Shown one piece after another: positions 12,198-24,009 of a stretch of DNA of 64,000 bases (positions are counted from its first letter, which is position 1; each line of letters opens with the position of its first letter). The stretch is taken from contig NZ_JALHRX010000003.1 of assembly GCF_023952475.1 (NCBI RefSeq), positions 310,001 through 374,000 on the forward strand. Direction: 5' to 3'. Source of the DNA: Cupriavidus sp. WGlv3 (lineage in GTDB: Bacteria; Pseudomonadota; Gammaproteobacteria; Burkholderiales; Burkholderiaceae). Under the pieces are notes generated by a model, which worked only from the letters and a program-made list of their open reading frames with translations, ran no database searches and was not told the DNA's origin. Both the position numbers and the translations under genes were made by a program.

Positions 12198-13391
12198 TCA
12201 GAAGAAGGCTTGCAGGCCGGTCTGGGCGCGGCCCAGGATCAGCGCGTGGATATCGTGCGTGCCTTCGTAGGTGTTGACCACCTCCAGGTTGACCACGTGG
12301 CGGATCACGCCGAACTCGTCCGAGATGCCGTTGCCGCCCAGCATGTCACGCGCCACGCGGGCGATGTCGAGCGACTTGCCGCACGAGTTGCGCTTCATGA
12401 TCGAGGTGATCTCGACCGCGGCGGTGCCTTCGTCCTTCATGCGGCCCAGGCGCAGGCAGCCCTGCAGGCCCAGCGTGATCTCGGTCTGCATGTCGGCCAG
12501 CTTCTTCTGCACCAGCTGGGTGGCGGCCAGCGGGCGGCCGAACTGCTTGCGGTCCAGCGTGTACTGGCGCGCGGTATGCCAGCAGAATTCGGCGGCGCCC
12601 AGCGCGCCCCAGGCGATGCCGTAGCGGGCCGAGTTCAGGCAGGTGAACGGACCCTTCAGGCCCTTCACGCCCGGCATGATGTTCTCTTCCGGCACGAACA
12701 CCTGGTCGAGCACGATCTCGCCGGTGATCGAGGTGCGCAGGCCGACCTTGCCGTGGATGGCCGGAGCGCTCAGGCCCTTCCAGCCCTTTTCCAGGATGAA
12801 GCCGCGGATGTCTTCCTTGCCGTCTTCGCCCTGCAGCTTGGCCCACACCACGAACACGTCGGCGATCGGCGAGTTGGTGATCCACATCTTGGCGCCGGTC
12901 AGCTCGTAGCCGCCGTCGACCTTCTTGGCGCGGGTGACCATCGAGCCGGGGTCGGAGCCGTGGTTCGGCTCGGTCAGGCCGAAGCAGCCGATCCACTCGC
13001 CGGTGGCCAGCTTGGGCAGGTACTTCTGCTTCTGCGCCTCGGTGCCGAATTCGTAGATGGGAACCATCACCAGCGACGACTGCACGCTCATCATCGAGCG
13101 GTAGCCCGAATCGACGCGCTCGACCTCACGCGCGATCAGGCCGTAGCTGACGTAGTTCAGGCCCGGGCCGCCGTATTGCTCGGGGATGGTCGGGCCGAGC
13201 AGGCCGAGTTCGCCCATCTCGCGGAAGATCTCGACGTCGGTCTTCTCGTTGCGGAACGACTGCAGCACGCGCGGCATCAGCTTGTCCTGGCAGTACGCCG
13301 CGGAGGCGTCACGCACGGCGCGTTCGTCGGCGGTCAGTTGCTGGTCCAGCAGCAGGGGGTCGGCCCAGTGAAATTCGGCGTTGGCAGCCAT
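12198..13391 (-). CDS. gcdH: Glutaryl-CoA dehydrogenase
   Basis: GcdH is an FAD enzyme that oxidises and decarboxylates glutaryl-CoA to crotonyl-CoA, a step in lysine, tryptophan and benzoyl-CoA-type catabolism. The 397-residue product shows the acyl-CoA dehydrogenase fold: N-terminal helices, [15 protein letters not shown], the K-M-W-I-T-N-S-P flavin-binding strand, [14 protein letters not shown], and the C-terminal [17 protein letters not shown]. The Glu in YEGT is the catalytic base and the Arg in [13 protein letters not shown] is characteristic of GcdH. It is divergent from an IclR-type regulator with a clear operator between them. Confidence 0.95.
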
Positions 13392-13555
13392 GCAGGTCTC
13401 CTTCGGTGGCGCAGCGGAAGCGCCGGGCGGGCGGCTGGCGTGCCGCGGTCCGCGCCGGCGGACTCCGTCATTCGTAACGGGTTCGGTGATCGATCGGTGA
13501 TCGGTCGATGGTGGTCGACGGCGATCGTGCGGAGGATTTTTTCGGGATCCTGTAA

Positions 13556-13616
13556 GTTCCGCATTGCGGAACTGTGTTCCGTTGAATTAGTATATCGCAA
13601 TGGTCTTGCCACGCAA
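13556..13616 (-). promoter_or_regulatory. gcdH promoter with IclR-type palindromic operator
   Basis: On the minus strand TTGCGT (13616-13611), a 16-bp spacer and TATACT (13594-13589) form a promoter directed at gcdH. Just downstream of the -10, at 13556-13572, lies a perfect palindrome GTTCCGC-ATT-GCGGAAC, with a further GTTCC half-site at 13576-13580. Position around the transcription start suggests repression by the divergent IclR protein; this is inferred. Confidence 0.75.
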
Positions 13617-13684
13617 CAGGCAAAACCCTGAACCTCCGCGCCTTTGTGCGATGAACGGACAAGCGCCGACTGGAGCCGCGAACC

Positions 13685-14503
13685 TTGGCCAACCCTAATC
13701 CCGATCCGTCACTTTCCCACGAACCTGCCGTGGCACCCCTGCGCGACAGCGACCCGAACTTCGTCACCGCGCTGGCACGCGGCCTGGAGCTGCTGCGCTG
13801 CTTCCGCACCGGCGAGGCGATGCTGGGCAACCAGGAGTTCGTGCGCCGCACGGGGTTTCCCAAGGCTACGGTAAGCCGGCTCGCCGGCACGCTGGTGCAG
13901 CTTGGCTACCTGCGCTATGACGAGAGCCTGGGCAAGTACGCGCTCGATGCCGGGGTGCTGGCGCTGGGCTACGCCTACCTGTCGGCGTCGGACGTGGTGT
14001 CGCTGGCGCGCCCGCATATGCTGGCGTTCGCGCAGTCATACGGAGTCTCGGTGTCGCTCGGCAAGCGCGAGCGCATGGAGGTGATCTACCTGGAGTCGAT
14101 CCGTAACGATGCCGGCGTGATGCTCGGGCTGGGCGTCGGCTCGCGGCTGTCGCTGGTGTCAAGCTCGATGGGGCGGGCCTACCTGGCCGCCTTGCCGGCG
14201 CCGCGCCGAGAGCGCGTGATGGCCGAGTTCAGCCAGGCCTTCCCGGAGCAATGGAAGCAGCAGGAGGCCGCCACCCGCGCCGCGCTGGCCGAGGCGCAGC
14301 AGCGTGGCTATGCCGCGTCGTTCCGCGACTGGCATCCGGCCATCCATGCCTGTGCGGTGGCGTTCCGGCCGGTGGGGGAGAAGGAGCTGCACATGCTGAG
14401 CTGCAGTGCTTCCTATGGCGCGGTGGACGAGGCGGTGTTCCACCAGACGCTGGCGCCGGCGCTGCAGACGCTGGCGGCAAGGTTGTCAGAGCCGGCGGGC
14501 TGA
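13685..14503 (+). CDS. IclR-family transcriptional regulator, probably of gcdH
   Basis: A 272-residue regulator with an N-terminal winged helix-turn-helix at about 25-85 (ALARGLELLRCF, GFPKATVSRLAGTL, LGYLRYD). The C-terminal IclR effector-binding domain is recognisable from YLESIR, the GVGSRLSLVSSSMGRAYLA region and SCSAS near the end. No ATG is available in a suitable place; the frame starts at TTG 13685 with GGAG about 10 bp upstream. It is divergent from gcdH and the palindrome between them is the likely binding site. The ligand may be glutarate or glutaryl-CoA, by context only. Confidence 0.9.
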   Translation: MANPNPDPSLSHEPAVAPLRDSDPNFVTALARGLELLRCFRTGEAMLGNQEFVRRTGFPKATVSRLAGTLVQLGYLRYDESLGKYALDAGVLALGYAYLSASDVVSLARPHMLAFAQSYGVSVSLGKRERMEVIYLESIRNDAGVMLGLGVGSRLSLVSSSMGRAYLAALPAPRRERVMAEFSQAFPEQWKQQEAATRAALAEAQQRGYAASFRDWHPAIHACAVAFRPVGEKELHMLSCSASYGAVDEAVFHQTLAPALQTLAARLSEPAG

Positions 14504-14553: not shown

Positions 14554-15444
14554 TCACAGGTCGGTCCGCAACTTCCACAGTTCCGGAAACAGCACCACAT
14601 CCAGCATCTTGCGCAGATAGCTGACGCCCTCGGTGCCGCCGGTGCCGCGCTTGAAGCCGATCACCCGCTCGACCGTGGTCACATGGCGGAAGCGCCATTG
14701 CCGGAACGCGTCTTCCAGGTCGACGAACTTCTCGCCCAGCTCGTAGAGTTCCCAGTGCGCGCCGGGGTTGCGATAGACCTCGAGCCAGGCCGCCTCGACC
14801 GAGGCGTTATAAGCGGTCGGCTGGGTCCAGTCGCGCTCGACGCAGTCGGCGTCGATGGCAAAGCCGCGCCGCGCCATCAGCCGGATCGCCTCGTCGTACA
14901 GCGACGGGGTCTTCAGCGCGGCCTCGACCAGCGCCAGGTGTTCCGGCCGGTGCGCGTGCGGCCTGAGCATGGCGGCGTTCTTGTTGCCCAGGATGAACTC
15001 GATCTCGCGGTACTGGTACGACTGGAAGCCCGACGACATGCCCAGGTAGGGCCGCATTGCCGAGTATTCCGGCGGCGTCATGGTGGCCAGCACGTTCCAG
15101 GCCTGCACCAGCTGGTCCATGATGCGCGACACGCGCGTCAGCATCTTGAACGCCGGCGGCAGGCTGTCGCCCTTGACCGACTCGCGCGCGGCGCGCAGCT
15201 CGTGCAGCATCAGCTTCATCCACAGCTCGGTGGTCTGGTGCTGCACGATAAACAGCATCTCGTTGTGGTCCGGCGACAGCGGATGCTGCGCGCTCAGGAT
15301 CTGGTCCAGGCCCAGGTAGTCGCCATAGCTCATGTCCCGGGCGAAATCCATCTGCGCGCCGTGCCAGTCGTCGTCTTGGGGGGTGGCTGCCGGCGTGGCT
15401 GCCGGCGCCGCGCCGGAGAAGGGGCATCCCTTGAATTCGCTCAT
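14554..15444 (-). CDS. kynA: Tryptophan 2,3-dioxygenase
   Basis: KynA is the cytoplasmic haem enzyme that opens the indole ring of L-tryptophan to N-formylkynurenine. The 296-residue product carries the family motifs [43 protein letters not shown] and, near the C-terminus, [19 protein letters not shown] with the haem-ligand His. The N-terminus has an Ala/Pro-rich leader of about 25 residues before the conserved fold. It is the last gene of kynBUA, 13 bp after kynU. Confidence 0.97.
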
Positions 15445-15457
15445 GATGCGCTCCCGG

Positions 15458-16714
15458 TCAGGTCACCTGGCCGCGCGTCTGGAAGCGCGCGTCGCGATAG
15501 GCGCCACTGTCCAGCACGTCGCGCAGGATTTCCACAGCATCCCACACCTCGGCGAAGCTGGTGTAGAGCGGCGTGAAGCCGAAGCGGGCGATGCGCGGCT
15601 CGCGGTAGTCGCCGATTACGCCGCGTTCGATCAGGGCCTGCACCAGGGCATAGCCGTCCGGGTGCTCCAGGCTGACCTGGCTGCCGCGGCGCGCGTGTTC
15701 GCGCGGCGTCACCAGCGTCAGCGGGTGGTGGCCGCAGCGAGCCTCGACCAGTTCGATGAACAAGTCGGTCAGCAGCAATGACTTGGCGCGCAGCACCTGC
15801 ATATTGGTCTGGGCGAAGATGTCCAGCCCGCACTCGACCATCGCCAGCGACGTGACCGGCTGCGTGCCGCACAGGAAGCGGCGCACGCCCTCGACCGGGC
15901 GGTACTGCGGATCCATCGCGAACGGCGCGGCATGGCCCCACCAGCCCGACAGCGGCTGCCAGAAGGCGTCGCGCAGCGCCGGCGCGACCCAGACGAAGGC
16001 GGGCGAGCCCGGGCCGCCGTTCAGGTACTTGTAGGTGCAGCCGATGGCGTAGTCGGCCCCGGCGGACTTCAGGTCGACCGGCACGGCGCCGGCCGAATGG
16101 CACAGGTCCCACACCGTCAGCGCGCCGCGCGCGTGGGCCAGCTCGGTGAGCCCGGCCATGTCGAGCATCTCGCCGGTCTTGTAGTTGACGTGGGTCAGCA
16201 TCAGCACCGCGGTGTCGGCGCCGACCGCGGCGTCGATCTCGGCCGGCGAGTTCACCAGCCGCAGCGAATAGCCCTGCTGCAGCAGGTCGGCCAGGCCCTG
16301 CGCGATATACAGGTCAGTCGGGAAGTTGCTGGCCTCGGAGACGATCACCTTGCGCGCCGGGTCGCGCGTCTGCTGCACGCGCAGCGCCGCGGCCAGTACC
16401 TTGAACAGGTTGATCGAGGTGGTGTCGGTGACCACCACTTCATCGTGGCCCGCGCCCACCAGCGGCGCCAGCTTGTTGCCCAGGCGCTGCGGCAGCTCGA
16501 ACCAGCCGGCGGTGTTCCAGCTGCGGATCAGGCCGTCGCCCCATTCCTCGGCCACCACCTGGGCGGCGCGCGCGGCGGCGGCGCGCGGGCGGGCGCCAAG
16601 CGAATTGCCGTCGAGGTAGATCACGCCCGGGGGCAGGGCGAACTGGTCGCGCAGCGGGCGCAGCGGGTCTTGCTGGTCGAGCCGGATACAGTGCTCGCGG
16701 TCAATGGTCGTCAT
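15458..16714 (-). CDS. kynU: Kynureninase
   Basis: KynU is a PLP enzyme that cleaves kynurenine to anthranilate and alanine. The 418-residue product (ATG 16714, MTTIDREHC) contains YLDGNSLGA near the N-terminus, [13 protein letters not shown], the [18 protein letters not shown] strand with the PLP-pyridine aspartate, and [11 protein letters not shown] with the Schiff-base lysine. The open frame extends further upstream but those residues are not family-like. It lies 37 bp after kynB and 13 bp before kynA. Confidence 0.97.
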
Positions 16715-16751
16715 GTCGTGCAGAAAGGCCAGGCGGGGTTCGGGAAAAGGG

Positions 16752-17402
16752 TCAGTCGAGGCTGCGCAGCACCGCGCGCACCGGGCTGGCGTCCAGCGCG
16801 GCAAAGCGCAGCGGCAGCGCGATCAGTTCATAGTCGCCGGCATCGACCTGGTCCAGCACGATGCCTTCCAGGATCGCCAGGCCGTGGCGGCGCACGGCGT
16901 TGTGCGCGTCCATGGTCTTGGAGTCCTGTGGATCGAGCGAGGGCGTGTCGATGCCGACCAGCTGCACGCCGTGCGCGGCCAGCAGCGCGATGGTGTCGGG
17001 CGATACCGCGCAGAAGGCCGGGTCCCACTGCGCCTGCGGCGCCTGTCGGTAAGTGCGCAGCAGCACCCGCGGCGGCAGCGCGTCGAGGGCGTGCGCGACA
17101 TGGTGCGGCTGCACCAGCGGCGCCGCGCCGATGCAGTGGATCACGCGGCAGCGGCCCAGGTAGGGCGCCAGCGGCACGGCGCCGATCGGCGCGCCGTCGG
17201 CGGCGTAATGCAGCGGCGCGTCCGCATGCGCGCCGGTGTGCGGCGACAGCGTGATGCGGCCGACATTGACCGGGCAATGCGCGTCGATCTGCCAGGCCGG
17301 CTGCTGCTGGAACGGCGTATCGCCGGGCCACACCGGCGTGGCGGGCGACAGCGGCGGGCTGATGTCCCACAGCCGGCGCGGGTCGGGATTGGGGGCGGTC
17401 AT
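16752..17402 (-). CDS. kynB: Kynurenine formamidase
   Basis: KynB hydrolyses N-formylkynurenine to kynurenine and formate. The 216-residue product belongs to the metal-dependent cyclase-like family: [20 protein letters not shown] at the start, and the Zn-binding [12 protein letters not shown] motif. It is the first gene of the minus-strand kynBUA operon and divergent from the Lrp-type regulator. With kynU and kynA it completes tryptophan to anthranilate. Confidence 0.95.
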
Positions 17403-17559: not shown

Positions 17560-18039
17560 ATGAACCTCGATCCGACCGATTTGCGCATCCTGACCTGCCT
17601 GCAGGAGAACGGCCGCATCAGCAACCAGGACCTGGCGGACCGCGTGGCGCTGTCGCCGTCGGCATGCCTGCGCCGTGTCCGGCTGCTGGAAGAGTCGGGG
17701 GTGATCGGCGGCTATCGCGCCTGGTTCGATGCCGAGCAACTGGGGCTGGAGCTGGAGGCGATCGTGCAGGTATCGATGCGCCATGACGTGGAGGGCTGGC
17801 ACGACACCTTCATCGCCGCGGTGCAGTCGTGGCCGGAAGTGCTGTCGGCGTACATCATCACCGGCGACAGCAACTACATCCTGCGCGTGCAGGCGCGCAA
17901 CCTGAAGCACTACTCGGACTTCATCGTGAACCGTCTGTACCGCACCCCGGGCGTGATGGATATCCGCTCGAACATCGTGCTGCAGCGGATCAAGGTGGAC
18001 AGTTCGCCGCTGGCGATCCTGAAGGCCGGGGAAGCCTAG
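17560..18039 (+). CDS. kynR: Lrp/AsnC-family regulator of the kynurenine operon
   Basis: A 159-residue Lrp/AsnC protein. The N-terminal helix-turn-helix has LDPTDLRILTCLQENGRISNQ-type spacing followed by SPSACLRRVRLLEESG. The C-terminal RAM domain shows AYIITGDSNYILRVQARNL and the conserved NIVLQRIK ending. In Pseudomonas a divergent Lrp-type protein, KynR, activates the kyn genes in response to kynurenine; the same arrangement supports this name here. Its stop overlaps the stop of the convergent marR gene by four bases. Confidence 0.88.
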   Translation: MNLDPTDLRILTCLQENGRISNQDLADRVALSPSACLRRVRLLEESGVIGGYRAWFDAEQLGLELEAIVQVSMRHDVEGWHDTFIAAVQSWPEVLSAYIITGDSNYILRVQARNLKHYSDFIVNRLYRTPGVMDIRSNIVLQRIKVDSSPLAILKAGEA

Positions 18040-18494
18040 CGCTGCGTATGCAGCGCGATCAGCTGGCGCAGGGTTTCCTTCAGTTGCGCGCCCTGGCGGG
18101 CGCCGAAGTCATCCAGCACGGCGCGCTCATGCTGCGCGGCGCGCTCGAGCAGCGGCTGCACCAGCGCGAGGCCGCGCGGGGTGATCGAGACCAGCGCCTG
18201 GCGGCGGTCGGTCTTGCCGGCGCGGCGCCGGACCAGGCCGTCGTGCGCCATGCGGTCGACCAGCTTGGTCAGCGTGGGCTGCTTGGTCAGCGTGATTTCC
18301 GCCAGCGCGCCGACGGTGCAGTCGGGGCGGTCGGCCAGCGTCGCCAGTACGCGCCATTCCTGCACCGACAGGCCGCTGGCCTCGACCTCGCGATGGAATT
18401 CGCCCGAGATCAGATGGCTGGCGCGGGCCAGCAGGTAGGCCAGGTAGCCGTCGACGAAGGGTTGAGGCGAGGGGACTGCCGGCAGGTCCGCCAT
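18036..18494 (-). CDS. MarR-family regulator of the dioxygenase/CoA-ligase cluster
   Basis: A 152-residue MarR protein with winged helix-turn-helix: VEASGLSVQEWRVLATLAD, ALAEITLTKQPTLTKLVDRM (recognition helix) and LVRRRAGKTDRRQALVSIT (wing). It follows the flavin reductase gene by 17 bp on the same strand, so it is probably co-transcribed and autoregulated from the divergent promoter near 19100. NicR and PicR, regulators of nicotinate and picolinate degradation, are also MarR proteins beside NicX-type dioxygenases, which fits this context. The effector is unknown. Confidence 0.9.
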   Translation of the reverse strand: MADLPAVPSPQPFVDGYLAYLLARASHLISGEFHREVEASGLSVQEWRVLATLADRPDCTVGALAEITLTKQPTLTKLVDRMAHDGLVRRRAGKTDRRQALVSITPRGLALVQPLLERAAQHERAVLDDFGARQGAQLKETLRQLIALHTQR

Positions 18495-18511
18495 GATGGC
18501 TCAGTGGCTGT

Positions 18512-19072
18512 TCAGAGATCGAGCGGAGCGGTGGTGGTGAACTGGCCGCCCTGGAATATCAGCGGGCCGTCCTTGCCATCGAGCACGCCGCAGCGCTCCA
18601 CCTCGCCGACAAAGATGACGTGGTCGCCCTCGTCGTAGCGGCTGCGGTTGTGGCATTCGAACCAGGCCAGCGCATTCGACAGGATCGGCAGGCCGGTGGC
18701 CGAGAGCCGGTAGTCGACGCCGGCGAAGCGGTCGCCCTTGAGCGTGGCGAAGCGCTGGCACAGGTCCAGCTGCGAGGCCGACAGCACGTTGATGATGTAG
18801 TGGGTGCCGTCGCGGAACATCGGCAGGCTGTTGGCGCGCGTGGCCATGCTCCACAGCACCAGCGGCGGCTCCAGCGACACCGAGTTGAACGAACTGGCGG
18901 TGATGCCGATGAACGGCGGCGCACCGGCCGCCACCGACTCGTTGCTGGCGCGCGTGGTGATCACCGTGACCCCGGTCGCGAACTGCGACAGGGTGCGGCG
19001 GAAGTGCATCGCATCGAAGTCCGGAGCGGCGGCTACGCTGGCGATCCGTGGCTGGGCCTCAGGCATGCCCAT
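18512..19072 (-). CDS. Flavin reductase (reductase component of a two-component monooxygenase)
   Basis: A flavin-reductase-like-domain protein (186 residues from ATG 19072). It shows FRRTLSQFATGVTVITT, GITASSFNSVSLEPPLVLWS and GDHVIFVGEVE, the FMN-binding split-barrel signature of HpaC/DszD-type reductases that feed reduced flavin to a partner oxygenase. An upstream in-frame ATG at 19093 is less likely because it lies inside a palindrome, only about 8 bases after the predicted transcription start and without a ribosome site; ATG 19072 has GTGGAG five bases upstream. It is divergent from the dioxygenase operon; the only flavin-monooxygenase-like partner nearby is the acyl-CoA-dehydrogenase-fold protein at 21209. 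Confidence 0.88.
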   Translation of the reverse strand: MGMPEAQPRIASVAAAPDFDAMHFRRTLSQFATGVTVITTRASNESVAAGAPPFIGITASSFNSVSLEPPLVLWSMATRANSLPMFRDGTHYIINVLSASQLDLCQRFATLKGDRFAGVDYRLSATGLPILSNALAWFECHNRSRYDEGDHVIFVGEVERCGVLDGKDGPLIFQGGQFTTTAPLDL

Positions 19073-19091
19073 GGGGGCTCCACTGGAGTTC

Positions 19092-19136
19092 ATGAAATTT
19101 CATATATATTATTCGCGCCAGGGGCGGCGAGTTCAA
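19092..19136. promoter_or_regulatory. Divergent control region with perfect palindrome (probable MarR operator)
   Basis: ATGAAATTTCAT at 19092-19103 is a perfect 12-bp palindrome next to an AT-rich TATATATTATT tract in otherwise very GC-rich DNA. On the minus strand TTGAAC (19136-19131), 17 bp and AATAAT (19113-19108) make a promoter for the reductase-marR pair whose start would fall in the palindrome. The forward promoter for the dioxygenase operon is less clear. Confidence 0.7.
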
Positions 19137-19227
19137 GTCCGGCGCCGCCGGCGCTGGCCGCTGCACAAAGCGTGGGCGGCCCGGGCCCCATAGAACAAGA
19201 AGCCAATAACAAGCAGGAGACAAGCGC

Positions 19228-20298
19228 ATGCTCATCGAGCAGATCGAACACCGCTGGCTGGCGGCGTTCCGCCGCACGCTGGAACTCTGTGCCCTGCGGC
19301 ACGGGGATGTCGTGGGAATTGTAACGGAGTCCCAATCCCGCCCTGTCAACGTGGCCTTGGCCGAATTGGCCGTGCAGACCCTTGGCGCCACGCCGGTGCG
19401 GATCCAGGTGCCGAGCCCGGCGCTTGCGGCGCCGGCGCCGGTGCGCTCCACCGGTGCCAGCGACGCCTTGCAGAATCTGGCCCCGGTGCTGGCGGCGCTG
19501 TCGCGCTGCCAGCTGGTGCTCGACTGCACCGTCGAAGGCCTGCTGCACGCGCCTGAGCTGCCGCAAATCCTGCGCGGCGCCGACGGCGTGGTGCCGCGCA
19601 TGCTGATGATCAGCAACGAGCACCCCGAGATCCTGGAGCGCTGCCAGCCCGACTCGTCGCTGGAGACCACCGTGCGCGCGGCGATGAAGCGCCTGCGCGG
19701 CGCGCGCGAGATGCGCGTGCATTCGGCCGCCGGCACCGAACTGCGCATCGGCCTGGCCGAGGCGCGCGTGGGCGGCGTCTGGGGTTTCTGCAACAAGCCC
19801 GGCCAGGTCTCGCACTGGCCCGGCGGGCTGTGCCTGGCATTCCCGGCCGGGCGCCAGGTCAACGGCACGCTGGTGCTGGCGCCGGGCGACGTCAACCTGA
19901 CCTTCAAGACCTACCTGCGCGACACCGTGGTCTGCCATATCGAGGAGGACTATATCGTCGCGGTCGAGGGGCAGGGCGTCGACGCCGACATGATGCGCGG
20001 CTACTACCAGGCCTGGGCCGACCGCGAAGGCACGCGCGACGCCTACGCGGTCTCGCACGTGGGCTGGGGCCTGAACCGGATGGCGCGCTGGGACGCGATG
20101 ACGTTCTACGACAAGCGCGATTGCAACGGCACCGAGCTGCGCGCGTTCGCCGGCAACTTCCTGTTCTCGACCGGCGCCAACGAGGTCGCCGGGCGGCATA
20201 CGCTGGGCCACTTCGACCTGCCGCTGCGCAACTGCACGGTGTCGCTCGACGGCCGCAACGAGGTCGAGGCCGGCACGCTGGTGGAGGTGGCCGCATGA
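19228..20298 (+). CDS. NicX-like ring-cleaving dioxygenase (2,5-dihydroxypyridine 5,6-dioxygenase family)
   Basis: A 356-residue protein of the family that holds the aminopeptidase-T-like fold and the 2,5-dihydroxypyridine dioxygenase NicX. C-terminal NicX motifs are clear: SHVGWGL, GNFLFSTGAN and HFDLPLRNC. The iron ligands of NicX (a His in SHxGWG and an HxD pair, as I recall them) correspond to His277, His328 and Asp330, all present. The N-terminal half is more divergent, so the substrate may differ from 2,5-dihydroxypyridine. CAGGAG precedes the ATG. It is first of a four-gene forward operon; its stop overlaps the next start (ATGA). Annotation as leucyl aminopeptidase is the usual alternative and I think it is wrong here. 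Confidence 0.82.
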   Translation: MLIEQIEHRWLAAFRRTLELCALRHGDVVGIVTESQSRPVNVALAELAVQTLGATPVRIQVPSPALAAPAPVRSTGASDALQNLAPVLAALSRCQLVLDCTVEGLLHAPELPQILRGADGVVPRMLMISNEHPEILERCQPDSSLETTVRAAMKRLRGAREMRVHSAAGTELRIGLAEARVGGVWGFCNKPGQVSHWPGGLCLAFPAGRQVNGTLVLAPGDVNLTFKTYLRDTVVCHIEEDYIVAVEGQGVDADMMRGYYQAWADREGTRDAYAVSHVGWGLNRMARWDAMTFYDKRDCNGTELRAFAGNFLFSTGANEVAGRHTLGHFDLPLRNCTVSLDGRNEVEAGTLVEVAA

Positions 20299-21113
20299 GC
20301 GCCGTGACCACGCAGCGCCACGCCAACGGCATCGCCACGCTGGCCTGGGGCGACGGGCCGGTGGCAGTGGTGATGTTGCATGGCATCGGCGGCGGCAAGG
20401 CCGCCTGGCCGGCGCAGGGCGAGGCCCTGGCGCAGGCCGGTTACCGCGCCTTGGCGTGGGACATGCCGGGCTATGGTGACAGTGCCCTGATCGACCCCTA
20501 TGACTTCAACGGACTGGCGCAGGCGCTGACCCCCGTGCTGCTGTTCGAACGCGACGCCGGCCGGCGCGTGGTGCTGCTGGGCCACAGCATGGGCGGCATG
20601 GTCGCGCAGCAGGCTTGCGCGGCCACGCCCGCGCTGGTCGACGGCATGGTGCTGTCCGGCACCTCGCCCGCCTTCGGTAAGGGCGATGGCCCGTGGCAGC
20701 GCGAGTTCATCGCCGCGCGCACCGCGCCGCTGGATGCCGGCAAGACCATGGCGCAGATGGCGGCCGGGCTGGTGCGCACCATGGTCGCGCCCGATGCCGA
20801 CGCGCAGGCGGTGGCCTTCGCCACCGCGGTAATGGCGGCGGTGCCGGCGCCCACCTACCGCGCCGCGCTGGGCGCGCTGGTGCGCTTCAACCAGCGCGAC
20901 GCGCTGCCGCGCATCACGGTGCCGGTGCTGGCGCTTGCAGGCCAGCACGATACCAACGCCGCGCCCGAGGTGATGCAGCGCATGGCGCAACGCATTGCAG
21001 GCGCCGAGTACCGCTGCCTGTCCGACGTGGGCCACCTGGCCTGCATGGAGCGCCCCGAGCTGTTCAACGACGCGGTGCTGGATTTCCTGCGCCGGCACTT
21101 TCCCGTGCACTGA
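20295..21113 (+). CDS. Alpha/beta hydrolase (NicD-like position)
   Basis: A 272-residue alpha/beta hydrolase. It has the oxyanion region LHGIGGGKAAW, WDMPGYGDS, nucleophile elbow GHSMGGM with Ser98, acid region LAGQHDTNAAP and the catalytic His in VGHLACMERPELF. In nicotinate and picolinate pathways the NicX ring-opening product is deformylated by such a hydrolase (NicD, N-formylmaleamate deformylase). The position right after the NicX-like gene, with a 4-bp overlap, suggests it acts on the ring-opened product. C-C-bond or thioester hydrolysis are equally possible. Confidence 0.85.
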   Translation: MSAVTTQRHANGIATLAWGDGPVAVVMLHGIGGGKAAWPAQGEALAQAGYRALAWDMPGYGDSALIDPYDFNGLAQALTPVLLFERDAGRRVVLLGHSMGGMVAQQACAATPALVDGMVLSGTSPAFGKGDGPWQREFIAARTAPLDAGKTMAQMAAGLVRTMVAPDADAQAVAFATAVMAAVPAPTYRAALGALVRFNQRDALPRITVPVLALAGQHDTNAAPEVMQRMAQRIAGAEYRCLSDVGHLACMERPELFNDAVLDFLRRHFPVH

Positions 21114-21208
21114 AGCGCGCCGCTTTCCGGCCACGCCAACACAACAACCGCCGCCGCGCCGCCCCCGTTCCCCCACCCGGCGCGAGCAGGACAAAAAGGA
21201 GACGCGAC

Positions 21209-22462
21209 ATGCCATCCGGCCAGCTCGACTTCATTCCCGCCGTCGGTACGGCGGACTTCTCCCCGGAACAGGCGCAATGGCTGACGCTGGCCAACCGCCT
21301 GGGCCGCGAGCGCTTCGCGCCGCGCGCCGCCACCTGGGACCGCGAGGCCAGCTTCCCGTTCGCCAACTACGACGACCTGCGCGAGGCCGGCCTGCTGGCC
21401 TTGTGCGTGCCGCGGGCGTTTGGCGGCGCGGGCGCGGACTTTGCCACCTACTGCATGGTCGGCGCGGAAATCGGCCGCTTCTGCGGCGCCACCGCGCTTA
21501 CCTACAACATGCATATCTGCTCGACCATGTGGACCGGCGTGCTGTCCGATGGCATCGACATGACGCCGGCACAGCGCGACGAACACCAGGCCCGCCGCGA
21601 GCTGCATTTCGCGCGGGTGGTGCGCGACGGCGCGGTCTACGCGCAGCCGTTCTCCGAAGGCTCGGCCGCCGCCGCCGGCAAGGCGCCGTTCGGCACCACC
21701 GCGCGCAAGGTCGACGGCGGCTGGGTGCTGAACGGGCGCAAGATCTTCGCCTCGCTGTCGGGCGCGGCCGATTACTACGGCATCCTGTGCACCGAGGACC
21801 GCGGCGACCAGCATCCGGACATGCGCGACACGCTCTACATCGCCGTGCCCGGACAGGCGGACGGGCTCACCGTTACCGGCGACTGGGACCCGATGGGCAT
21901 GCGCGGCACGGTGTCGCGCACGCTGCTGCTCAAGGACGTGTTCGTGCCCGACCACGAGCAGCTGATGCCGCGCGGGGTCTACTACCGCGCGGCGCAGACC
22001 TGGCCGGCGATGTTCTTCACGCTGTCGCCGACCTACCTCGGCGTGGCGCAGGCGGCCTACGACTTCACCGTGCAGTACCTGCGCGGCGAGGTGCCGGGCC
22101 AGCCGCCGGTCAAGCGCCGCATGTATCCCACCAAGCAGATCGCGGTGGCGCAGATGCGCATCCAGCTGGAGACCATGCGCTCGCTCTTCTGGCGCGCGAT
22201 CCACGAAGCGAAGCCCAATCCGTCCAAGGACGAGCGCTTGCGCCTGTACGCCGCGCACTACACGGTGATGGAAGGGGCCAACGATATCGCCCGGCTGGCG
22301 ATCCGCACCTGCGGCGGCCAGTCGATGCTCAAGGACCTGCCGCTGGAGCGGCTCTACCGCGATTCGCGCTGTGGCGCGCTGATGCTGCCGTGGACCGCCG
22401 AGCTGATCCTCGACCGCATGGGCCGCGAGACCCTGTACGAATCCGGCGAGCGCGACGAATGA
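21209..22462 (+). CDS. Acyl-CoA-dehydrogenase-fold flavoprotein lacking the catalytic Glu
   Basis: A 417-residue protein with the full acyl-CoA dehydrogenase fold: FGGAGADFATYCMVGAEIG, TTARKVDGGWVLNGRKIFAS, GDWDPMGMRGTVSRTLLLKDV and a C-terminal CGGQSMLKDLPLERLYRD. Where medium-chain enzymes have the catalytic Glu (YEGT), this protein reads LPWT, with Pro394 at that position. The isovaleryl-type Glu position, in the segment before YLGVAQAAYD, is also not Glu by my alignment. It may therefore be a group D flavin monooxygenase using reduced flavin from the reductase at 18512, rather than a dehydrogenase. AAAAGGAG precedes ATG 21209. Its stop overlaps the ligase start (ATGA). Confidence 0.82.
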   Translation: MPSGQLDFIPAVGTADFSPEQAQWLTLANRLGRERFAPRAATWDREASFPFANYDDLREAGLLALCVPRAFGGAGADFATYCMVGAEIGRFCGATALTYNMHICSTMWTGVLSDGIDMTPAQRDEHQARRELHFARVVRDGAVYAQPFSEGSAAAAGKAPFGTTARKVDGGWVLNGRKIFASLSGAADYYGILCTEDRGDQHPDMRDTLYIAVPGQADGLTVTGDWDPMGMRGTVSRTLLLKDVFVPDHEQLMPRGVYYRAAQTWPAMFFTLSPTYLGVAQAAYDFTVQYLRGEVPGQPPVKRRMYPTKQIAVAQMRIQLETMRSLFWRAIHEAKPNPSKDERLRLYAAHYTVMEGANDIARLAIRTCGGQSMLKDLPLERLYRDSRCGALMLPWTAELILDRMGRETLYESGERDE

Positions 22463-24009
22463 GCGCCCCCCGCCGGGCCATCCGTGCCGGTGCCGCTGGC
22501 CTGGGTGCGCTGCCGGCCATGCTGCATGGCCATGCCGACGCAGCGCCGGGCCGGCCGGCGTTGCACTACCAGGGCCGCACCTTCACCTACGGCAAGCTGT
22601 GGCGGCGCGTGGAGCGCGCCAGCGCCCACCTGGCCGCAACCTGGGACATCCGCCCCGGCGACCGCGTCGGCACGCTGTGCCTGAACCACGAGCTGCAGCT
22701 GGTGCTGCTGTTCGCCTGCGCCCGCGTCGGCGCCATGTTTGCGCCGCTGAACTACCGGCTGGCGCCGGCCGAACTGCGGGCGATTGCGGCCCACGCGCAA
22801 CTGGCCGTGCTGTTCCATGATGGGGCCCATGAAGCGCTGGCGCGCGAGGCCGGCGCCGATTGCCGGCTGGCGCACCTCGACCGGCTGATCGACCATCCGG
22901 CGCCGTCCGACGTGATCCATGCCGCCGTGCCGGACCATGCGCCGCTGTTGCTGGCCTATACCTCCGGCACCACTGGCAAGCCCAAGGGCGCGGTCCATAC
23001 CCAGGCCGGCTTGCTGGCCAATGCGCGCGCCAGCTGGTGGGCGCACGGCATGAGCGCGGACGACCACGTGCTGTCGGTGCTGCCGCTGTTCCATGTCGGC
23101 GGGCTGTGCATCCAGACGCTGCCGGCGCTGCTCGCCGGCGCGCGCGTCACGCTGCATGACCGCTTTGCGCCGCAGGCGTGGCTGGATGCGGTGGCCACGG
23201 CGCGGCCGAGCCTGTCGCTGATGGTACCGGCGACGCTGCGCGCGGTGCTGGAGCACCCGGGCTGGGCCGATGCCGACCTCGCGGCGCTGCGCGGGGTGAT
23301 GGCGGGATCGTCAACCATCCCGCGCTCGTATATCGACGCCTTCCACGCCCGCGGCGTGCCGCTCGGACAGGTCTATGGCGCCACCGAGACCGGGCCGGTG
23401 TCGGTGGTGCTGAAGCTGGAACAGGCCATGGCGCGCCCCGGCTACGCTGGCTGGCCGCAGCCCGAGGCCGAAGTGCGCCTGGCCGGCGCCGACGGCGCCG
23501 AGGTGGCGCCGGGCGCGGTGGGCGAGCTGTGGGTGCGCGGCACCAATGTCATGGCGGGCTACTGGAACCAGACCAAGAGTGGGCTAACCGACAACGGGCT
23601 GCCGGGCGGCTGGTTCCATTCCGGCGACCTGGCCCACCGCGATGCCGAAGGCTGCATCGAGGTGGTAGGCCGCAGCAAGGACATGATCATCTCGGGCGGC
23701 GAGAACATCTATCCCGCCGAGATCGAGAACGTGCTGGTCGGCCTGCCCGGCGTGCAGGAATGCGCGGTGGTCGGCGTGGCCGATGCGCGCTGGGGCGAAG
23801 TGCCGGTGGCGGTGATCGTGCCGGCGCCGGGGGCGCCGCGCGGCGCGCTGGCGGCCGAGCCGCTGCGCGAGCTGCTGGCCGCGCGCATCGCGCGCTTCAA
23901 GCTGCCGCGCGAGGTGGTGCTGATGGACGACCTGCCGCGCAGCGCGCTGGGCAAGGTGCTCAAGCCGCAATTGCGCGCGCTGCTGGAGGCGCGCCGCGAG
24001 CCCGGTTGA
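22459..24009 (+). CDS. AMP-forming acyl/aryl-CoA ligase
   Basis: A 516-residue ANL-superfamily ligase. It has the P-loop-like YTSGTTGKPKGAV motif, GATETGP (A5), the hinge and aspartate region FHSGDLAHRDAEG, VVGRSKDMIISGGENIYPAEIE, and the C-terminal catalytic lysine in ALGKVLKPQ. It should activate a carboxylic acid to its CoA thioester; the acid is unknown. It is translationally coupled to the flavoprotein gene (ATGA overlap) and is last in the operon, implying that the pathway works on CoA esters. Long-chain specificity is not indicated. Confidence 0.9.
   Translation: MSAPRRAIRAGAAGLGALPAMLHGHADAAPGRPALHYQGRTFTYGKLWRRVERASAHLAATWDIRPGDRVGTLCLNHELQLVLLFACARVGAMFAPLNYRLAPAELRAIAAHAQLAVLFHDGAHEALAREAGADCRLAHLDRLIDHPAPSDVIHAAVPDHAPLLLAYTSGTTGKPKGAVHTQAGLLANARASWWAHGMSADDHVLSVLPLFHVGGLCIQTLPALLAGARVTLHDRFAPQAWLDAVATARPSLSLMVPATLRAVLEHPGWADADLAALRGVMAGSSTIPRSYIDAFHARGVPLGQVYGATETGPVSVVLKLEQAMARPGYAGWPQPEAEVRLAGADGAEVAPGAVGELWVRGTNVMAGYWNQTKSGLTDNGLPGGWFHSGDLAHRDAEGCIEVVGRSKDMIISGGENIYPAEIENVLVGLPGVQECAVVGVADARWGEVPVAVIVPAPGAPRGALAAEPLRELLAARIARFKLPREVVLMDDLPRSALGKVLKPQLRALLEARREPG

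Follow-up and report, generated by a model that had tools for sequence, protein, structure and literature searches.

The 64,000-nucleotide window of Cupriavidus sp. WGlv3 analysed here (contig NZ_JALHRX010000003.1, positions 310,001 to 374,000; source genome 6.75 Mb) contains a divergent six-gene cluster centered on a homolog of NicX, the ring-cleaving dioxygenase of nicotinate degradation. The enzyme classes encoded, the iron site of the dioxygenase, the loss of the residue equivalent to NicX Glu177, the loss of the usual catalytic base in an acyl-CoA dehydrogenase (ACAD)-fold flavoprotein, the recurrent gene set, a palindrome in the control region and an anthranilate-type genomic linkage are the sequence evidence on which our interpretation rests. 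Read together, they very probably describe a module that combines a hydroxylase, NicX-type ring cleavage, a hydrolase and a coenzyme A (CoA) ligase under MarR control. Our leading proposal is that this module serves the inducible aerobic breakdown of an aminoaromatic acid of the benzenoid type, with anthranilate as the likeliest substrate, although we place it slightly short of an even chance. Its most specific form is advanced tentatively: the cluster would be a fifth aerobic anthranilate route, with the first NicX-fold dioxygenase to open a benzene ring, acting on the thioester 5-hydroxyanthraniloyl-CoA, and a NicD-like hydrolase removing the formyl group.

A conserved module around a divergent NicX homolog

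In a sample of 300 genomes of the order, 21 have a match to the dioxygenase (P0003). Twelve of the 300, the source genome included, carry what we term clade A, with homologs 58-69% identical or P0003 itself; three have only a 50-52% homolog (clade B), which a fourth genome, G180, holds along with a clade-A copy (G numbers denote genomes and L numbers locus stretches). The remaining six comprise five genomes in which every homolog is 37-40% identical and one with a weak 22% match. In a tree of 43 rows, clades A and B split off from the other NicX homologs (support 100/99) and clade A is recovered (93/98), with long branches flagged. The source genome itself codes for two NicX homologs besides P0003; these share 40% identity with it and sit in nicE-nicD-nicX-nicF sets named by sequence and mutual similarity (L043 7301-10460 on C77 and L044 7367-10565 on C1; 76-94% identical between sets). 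Since two complete nic sets thus lie elsewhere in the genome, the present cluster is a third, divergent system, and we rejected its interpretation as an ordinary nicotinate cluster.

NicX (7cn3) is the sole PDB sequence match of P0003, for which no Pfam or NCBIfam model matched at E 0.001. According to the parts of the NicX study available to us, the iron ligands of that enzyme are His265, Ser302, His318 and Asp320, the pyridone is bound by Glu177 (N-H and O1) and His189, and Val175 is a residue of channel I (PMC7910607). P0003 keeps all four ligands, as H277, S314, H328 and D330, in agreement with the enzyme class assigned in the initial annotation, which was made from the letters of the window. 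Aligned to the NicX chain, these ligands and Arg293 are invariant in 90/90 distinct clade-A and 7/7 clade-B sequences, which are counts of sequences and not of independent events. At the position of Glu177 (V184 in P0003), clade-A sequences have Val in 86/90 cases (Gly in 3, Asn in 1) and clade-B sequences either Gly or Thr; Glu is found in seven and Gln in two of nine other NicX homologs. With Glu177 replaced, P0003 does not preserve the complete Glu177/His189/His105 substrate-binding network of NicX proper. His105 and His189 are both kept in 90/90 clade-A sequences, and His105 also in clade B; the nine others carry Phe in place of His at 105, and the network thus varies among ordinary NicX proteins too. 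The positions of Val175 and Thr176 are both Gly in 90/90 clade-A sequences, and this pair of glycines, one at the channel-I position and one next to it, suggests a bulky substrate. These residues point to an active ring-cleaving iron site from which lactam recognition has gone and whose channel has probably widened. A third NicX-like group (L026 and L027, from G175 and G180) shows 33-37% identity and has Gln at the Glu177 position.

Conservation extends, across soil and freshwater bacteria, to the genes around the dioxygenase. A scan of named genomes, in which the best 80 of 156 relatives were kept, spans Cupriavidus, Limnohabitans, Pandoraea, Hydrogenophaga and further Burkholderiales. One copy, L079, comes from a contig assigned to a metagenome bin of Akkermansia and groups with Limnohabitans in the tree, probably reflecting a binning error. 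Among the 50 long named loci (each at least 19 kb, genes being counted from 38-40% identity up), the four plus-strand genes occur together in 50/50, MarR in 46 and the reductase in 40. Across all 80 named loci, many of them partial, the hydrolase is found in 80, the ACAD-fold gene in 76, the ligase in 69, MarR in 70 and the reductase in 61. The 11 clade-A loci from the other genomes of the order sample have the ACAD-fold gene in 11, the hydrolase in 10, the ligase in 10 (one interrupted by a contig end), MarR in 7 and the reductase in 4. Other genera have the plus-strand genes in this same order, with protein identities of 44-79%.

The coordinates (Table 1) and two ATGA overlaps, at the NicX-like/hydrolase and ACAD/ligase joints, with a hydrolase-ACAD gap of 95 nt, confirm the divergent six-gene layout and tight joints described at the outset. 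Maleamate amidase and maleate isomerase had been noted as missing, and NicF and NicE are indeed the best match of no gene call in the incomplete gene list of the window and were not found in the near-identical Cupriavidus loci.

Table 1. Features of the cluster and its immediate neighbors in the window
Feature	Position	Strand	Basis
MarR-family regulator, presumed repressor (P0001)	18036..18494	-	Pfam MarR_2 8.3e-16
Flavin reductase (P0002), presumed partner of flavin monooxygenase	18512..19093	-	Pfam Flavin_Reduct 8.7e-39
Probable MarR operator, perfect palindrome ATGAAATTTCAT	19092..19103	.	sequence, conservation
NicX-like Fe(II) ring-cleavage dioxygenase (P0003), divergent subfamily	19228..20298	+	PDB 7cn3 NicX E=2.6e-51
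Alpha/beta hydrolase (P0004), proposed deformylase or C-C/thioester hydrolase	20295..21113	+	Pfam Abhydrolase_6 1.3e-26
ACAD-fold flavoprotein (P0006), proposed oxygenase component of two-component aromatic hydroxylase	21209..22462	+	nearest PDB 5gj7/5z8t
AMP-forming acyl/aryl-CoA ligase (P0005)	22459..24009	+	Pfam AMP-binding 5.9e-79
kynB-kynU-kynA, neighbors	14554..17402	-	kynureninase TIGR01814 3.2e-108; kynA, kynB named from sequence alone
Lrp-type regulator between kyn genes and cluster	17560..18039	+	named from sequence alone

Of the two PDB chains closest to the flavoprotein P0006 by sequence, 5z8t is titled a flavin-containing monooxygenase and is 27% identical; a fold search with the model of P0006 (pLDDT 75.9) gave matches throughout the ACAD superfamily. 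Where dehydrogenases usually have their catalytic Glu (YEG motif), Pro stands in 84/84 rows, comprising P0006 and 83 homologs, with MLP[W/Y/L]T at this position in all 84 and no acidic residue at 391-397, and three ACAD-family controls keep the Glu at the same column. P0006 thus shows the marks of ACAD-fold flavin monooxygenases, namely the fold, the missing Glu at the usual place and a linked flavin reductase, and falls far below every cut-off of the NCBIfam models for two-component monooxygenases of this fold. It is probably, in line with the two-component flavin monooxygenase first suggested for this locus, the oxygenase of a two-component aromatic hydroxylase.

The best sign that P0006 hydroxylates the compound on which the dioxygenase then acts is its replacement by unrelated ring hydroxylases in related lineages. 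In clade B of family f19, a ring hydroxylase with FAD_binding_3 and Rng_hyd_C domains follows the NicX-like and hydrolase genes in the slot of the ACAD-fold gene (3/3 loci), and in another clade-B stretch, L041, a different FAD_binding_3 protein is encoded between these two genes. No ACAD homolog was found in these four stretches, to which the search was confined; L039 and L042 end 0.4 and 1.5 kb from the dioxygenase on one side. Clade-B plasmid loci of Aminobacter, Ensifer and Sinorhizobium keep the ACAD gene.

Clade B presents further variations. L039, L040 and L042, from ~2 Mb genomes of one family with stretches of 42-45% GC, combine the clade-B NicX-like gene, the hydrolase and a ring hydroxylase with an ABC-type substrate-binding protein, and constitute a minimal version of the module. 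The alphaproteobacterial modules (L045 5263-14694 and L046 9001-15210) include a glutamine-synthetase-like gene, a TetR regulator and an APC permease, and perhaps represent a route through gamma-glutamylated aromatic amines; the Aminobacter locus (L045) has upstream a gentisate/5-aminosalicylate-dioxygenase-like gene that scores below both cut-offs.

As for the remaining two enzymes, the best NCBIfam profiles of the hydrolase are of the PcaDC/PcaD type, below cut-off, and it is 25% identical to the NicD of its own genome (E=4e-7). The ligase has its best PDB matches in 8weu/8wev (fatty-acyl-CoA synthase/feruloyl-CoA synthetase, 1.1e-96).

The control region and the genomic neighborhood

Allowing one mismatch, the palindrome seen at first inspection in the shared control region has 1 match in the window versus a mean of 0.03 in shuffles of the window, and the exact site occurs once in the entire source genome, at this cluster. 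In 71/79 named loci with enough sequence (the L114 stretch was too short to be counted), ATGAAWWTTCAT lies within 250 nt upstream of the dioxygenase gene, the loci devoid of it being L061, L063, L065, L066, L069, L074, L077 and L084; no further sites beyond those 71 occur in the 1.38 Mb of the 80 named loci. Across 16 genomes, 29 palindrome sites were counted in total. This recurrence and the single site in the source genome make MarR control of the divergent promoter through the palindrome likely, with the MarR protein presumably repressing both arms from the one site. The regulator is HpaR-like, yet scores 66.6 bits against the NCBIfam HpaR cut-off of 121.2. Because the palindrome shares two bases with the assumed start codon of the reductase, that start may be misassigned. 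We also considered whether the same MarR protein governs the abm operon of this genome (see below) via the same palindrome, which is unsupported given that the exact site occurs only at the present cluster.

The products of kynA, kynU and kynB make anthranilate from tryptophan. These genes adjoin the cluster in 14/14 Cupriavidus-type and 5/5 Pandoraea named loci. The Lrp-type regulator is present in 14/14 of the former; the Pandoraea loci have no Lrp gene, and their kynBUA, MarR and reductase genes are co-directional. KynU scores over cut-off in 21/21 named genomes tested. Beyond the kyn genes, an ACAD-family gene and a regulator-like open reading frame (window 12198-14503; L126 2817-5052) are arranged identically in Cupriavidus and Pandoraea, the window copy of the former retaining the YEG motif. 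In relatives without the cluster, the reductase stands beside Lrp and kynBUA (L135 11258-11878; L137 4484-4963; L138 7531-8037), and a fourth such relative, L136, has kynU and kynA and no reductase; this looks like loss of the cluster with retention of the reductase. The reductase of L137 is followed by a gene that its sequence marks as msrA-like, just as the cluster is in the window.

A second linkage concerns abmA-type (2-aminobenzoyl-CoA) genes, which are the neighbors of the cluster in f3 genomes and at many loci of Limnohabitans. The protein of L107 scores 1314 bits against a cut-off of 1078 for the NCBIfam family of bifunctional salicylyl-CoA 5-hydroxylase/oxidoreductase, and we take it to be AbmA by comparison with Azoarcus evansii and from its operon (short-chain dehydrogenase/reductase, enoyl-CoA hydratase, ACAD, ligase and Rid-type protein). 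In the order sample, abmA-type genes lie within ~16 kb of the cluster in 6/12 clade-A genomes and on other contigs in the other 6; abmA-like proteins (E < 1e-200) are found in 12/12 clade-A genomes versus 27/288 others (Fisher 4e-12). Full-length abmA is present in 29/30 named cluster genomes, with 4 of the 29 matches reading through one stop codon, possibly ahead of the true start; Limnohabitans parvus (L097), which may lack abmA, has other abm-operon genes. Within up to 10 kb on either side, 22/50 long named loci have abmA and 15/50 have kynABU; of the 13 with neither, four have other abm-operon genes, two an abm ligase or Rid-type gene only and seven none. The source genome has an abm operon, with its abmA-type gene at C2:147415-149784, outside the cluster. 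In G180, ~1 kb separates the third-group NicX-like gene from abmA, and the distance to the clade-A gene is ~6 kb.

The predicted pathway and its competitors

In the pathway that we favor, whose substrate, regiochemistry, order of steps and CoA-bound ring cleavage we infer, the ligase would first form anthraniloyl-CoA. The ACAD-fold protein, with reduced flavin from the divergently encoded reductase, would then hydroxylate it para to the amino group to give 5-hydroxyanthraniloyl-CoA, and the NicX-like Fe(II) enzyme would cleave the C5-C6 bond, so that a carboxylate forms and the thioester-bearing carbon is left with a formyl group. Finally, the alpha/beta hydrolase would release formate and yield 3-amino/3-oxo-hexenedioyl-CoA for thiolysis. 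NicX cuts the C5-C6 bond of 2,5-dihydroxypyridine, and NicD deformylates N-formylmaleamate. If 5-hydroxyanthraniloyl-CoA is laid over 2,5-dihydroxypyridine, its amino carbon would correspond to C2-O, its acyl-bearing carbon to N1-H, and the same C5-C6 bond would be cut. The proposed intermediate is reported, in the portion of the paper available, as a product of 2-aminobenzoyl-CoA monooxygenase/reductase under limiting NADH (PMC3534580).

This scheme follows the order of activation, hydroxylation, cleavage and hydrolysis envisaged in the initial annotation and fits it, except that not every member can rely on a ligase of its own cluster for activation, as L037 and clade B have no ligase nearby. 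The same annotation had left the choice between an aminoaromatic and an N-heteroaromatic substrate in a CoA-dependent pathway; we favor the former, with its CoA part, and disfavor the latter owing to the loss of Glu177 and the recurrent tryptophan/anthranilate-type neighbors. Its remark that it did not recognise the combination as a described pathway agrees with our finding none of this composition in an open-access library, from which most subscription papers are absent and in which a single paper mentions hydroxyanthraniloyl-CoA.

Several observations weigh against the anthranilate proposal. With an abmA-type enzyme in nearly all cluster genomes tested, a second anthranilate route looks redundant, and the actual substrate of the cluster may be a related compound. 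The tie of abmA to anthranilate is itself less than firm, given that its family model is named for salicylyl-CoA, and the f3 copies share 49-50% identity with the Limnohabitans protein, with their usual operon partners absent save a nearby ligase or Rid-type gene. As a control, genomes with other NicX homologs have abmA in 7/8 cases (4/5 after leaving out three with clade A), and the ordinary nic set of G237 is ~5 kb from abmA; the co-occurrence therefore partly mirrors an aromatic-degrading lifestyle and is weakened as a proof of substrate. KynU over cut-off is found in only 6/12 clade-A genomes of the order sample (43/288 others). At the level of the module, L037 is devoid of the ligase and L032 of the hydrolase, and no ligase was found in the clade-B stretches examined. 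At the level of the enzymes, the hydrolase profile is closer to PcaD than to NicD, the anthranilate-CoA ligase 4wv3 is a distant match (1.4e-34), and the AlphaFold model of the dioxygenase is poor (pLDDT 57.9) and was not used. In the fold search with P0006, acyl-CoA dehydrogenases rank above the monooxygenase, so that this search alone does not decide, and the catalytic Glu of dehydrogenases is missing at its usual place only, a base elsewhere being possible. Further, as three of the four relatives without the cluster keep the reductase beside the kyn genes, it may have another partner.

Among the alternatives, it is possible, if less than probable, that the same enzymology acts on another aminoaromatic or hydroxyaromatic acid encountered when tryptophan or plant matter is degraded, such as hydroxyanthranilates, side products of kynurenine or an indolic acid, the kyn and abm genes then marking aromatic islands. 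The 29/30 named genomes in which abmA could already handle anthranilate are consistent with this, as are the enrichment of NbaC over cut-off (7/12 clade-A genomes versus 11/288) and the use of other hydroxylases or a glutamine-synthetase-like enzyme by the ligase-less clade B. In contrast, the kyn and abm linkages both point to anthranilate, and the source genome has no NbaC over cut-off. Nor does that genome have AntA or a 3-hydroxyanthranilate dioxygenase over cut-off (AndA-type enzymes were not searched for separately).

A variant that is possible but rather less than probable, and that overlaps with the readings of the substrate without excluding them, places the ligase last: the free acid would be hydroxylated, cleaved and deformylated, and the product activated with CoA for beta-oxidation. 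The clade-B modules and L037, with hydroxylase, dioxygenase and hydrolase and no ligase nearby, suit this order, and so does the similarity of the ligase to fatty-acyl- and feruloyl-CoA synthetases. Against it stand the clade-A glycines of channel I, with the bulky substrate they suggest, and the linked abm pathway, which acts on CoA esters according to the sections available of a review (PMC4539516).

We consider it quite improbable that the cluster degrades an N-heteroaromatic acid of the picolinate, nicotinate or hydroxypyridine type, with the dioxygenase cleaving a dihydroxypyridine. This would agree with NicX being the only PDB sequence match, with the kept His105 and His189 and with the MarR regulators and NicD-type hydrolases of nic systems; Glu177 is, however, lost in both clades, and the genome already has its two ordinary nic sets. 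A chance grouping of ordinary fatty-acid genes and an M29 aminopeptidase, as the labels 'peptidase M29' and 'acyl-CoA dehydrogenase family protein' given to clade-B homologs in public records would have it, is rejected as very improbable on the lost dehydrogenase Glu, the conserved gene set (four plus-strand genes in 50/50 long named loci) and the invariant iron ligands, including the equivalent of Ser302.

If the anthranilate proposal is true, a sister clade that kept its iron site and lost a pyridone-binding residue would illustrate how an unusual peptidase-like fold moved to another ring, and the cluster would be a conserved catabolic unit of freshwater Limnohabitans, found also in Cupriavidus and Pandoraea. 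It could also give freshwater bacteria a further way to degrade the anthranilate that derives from tryptophan, and would give a function to the genes so labeled in plasmid records.

Relation to known systems

Four routes of aerobic anthranilate degradation are listed in the above review, and in the parts available no dioxygenase of this kind belongs to any of them (PMC4539516). Of these, the gentisate route possibly shares a 5-hydroxylated intermediate with the cluster; neither it nor the catechol and 3-hydroxyanthranilate routes are described there with a NicX-type enzyme. Similarly, no ring-cleaving dioxygenase is described in those parts for the abm pathway of Azoarcus evansii (PMC4539516). 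That pathway and the cluster share the logic of a ligase and a flavin oxygenase for anthranilate; the abm system, however, uses a fused FAD_binding_3/Oxidored_FMN protein, of which the window cluster has no AbmA-type counterpart, along with beta-oxidation enzymes.

P0006 resembles the DszC, HsaA and p-hydroxyphenylacetate 3-hydroxylase type in its ACAD fold, the absence of the usual Glu and a separate flavin reductase, and departs from that type in its scores far below their NCBIfam cut-offs and in the MLP[W/Y/L]T stretch at the Glu position. With the nic systems, the cluster shares the four NicX iron ligands, an adjoining alpha/beta hydrolase that is distantly NicD-like, and the use of a MarR-type regulator. 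In contrast to them, NicF and NicE were not found beside it, and P0003 is ~40% identical to the NicX copies of its own genome, belongs to a separate clade and has lost Glu177, while the cluster brings with it an ACAD-fold flavoprotein, a flavin reductase and a CoA ligase.

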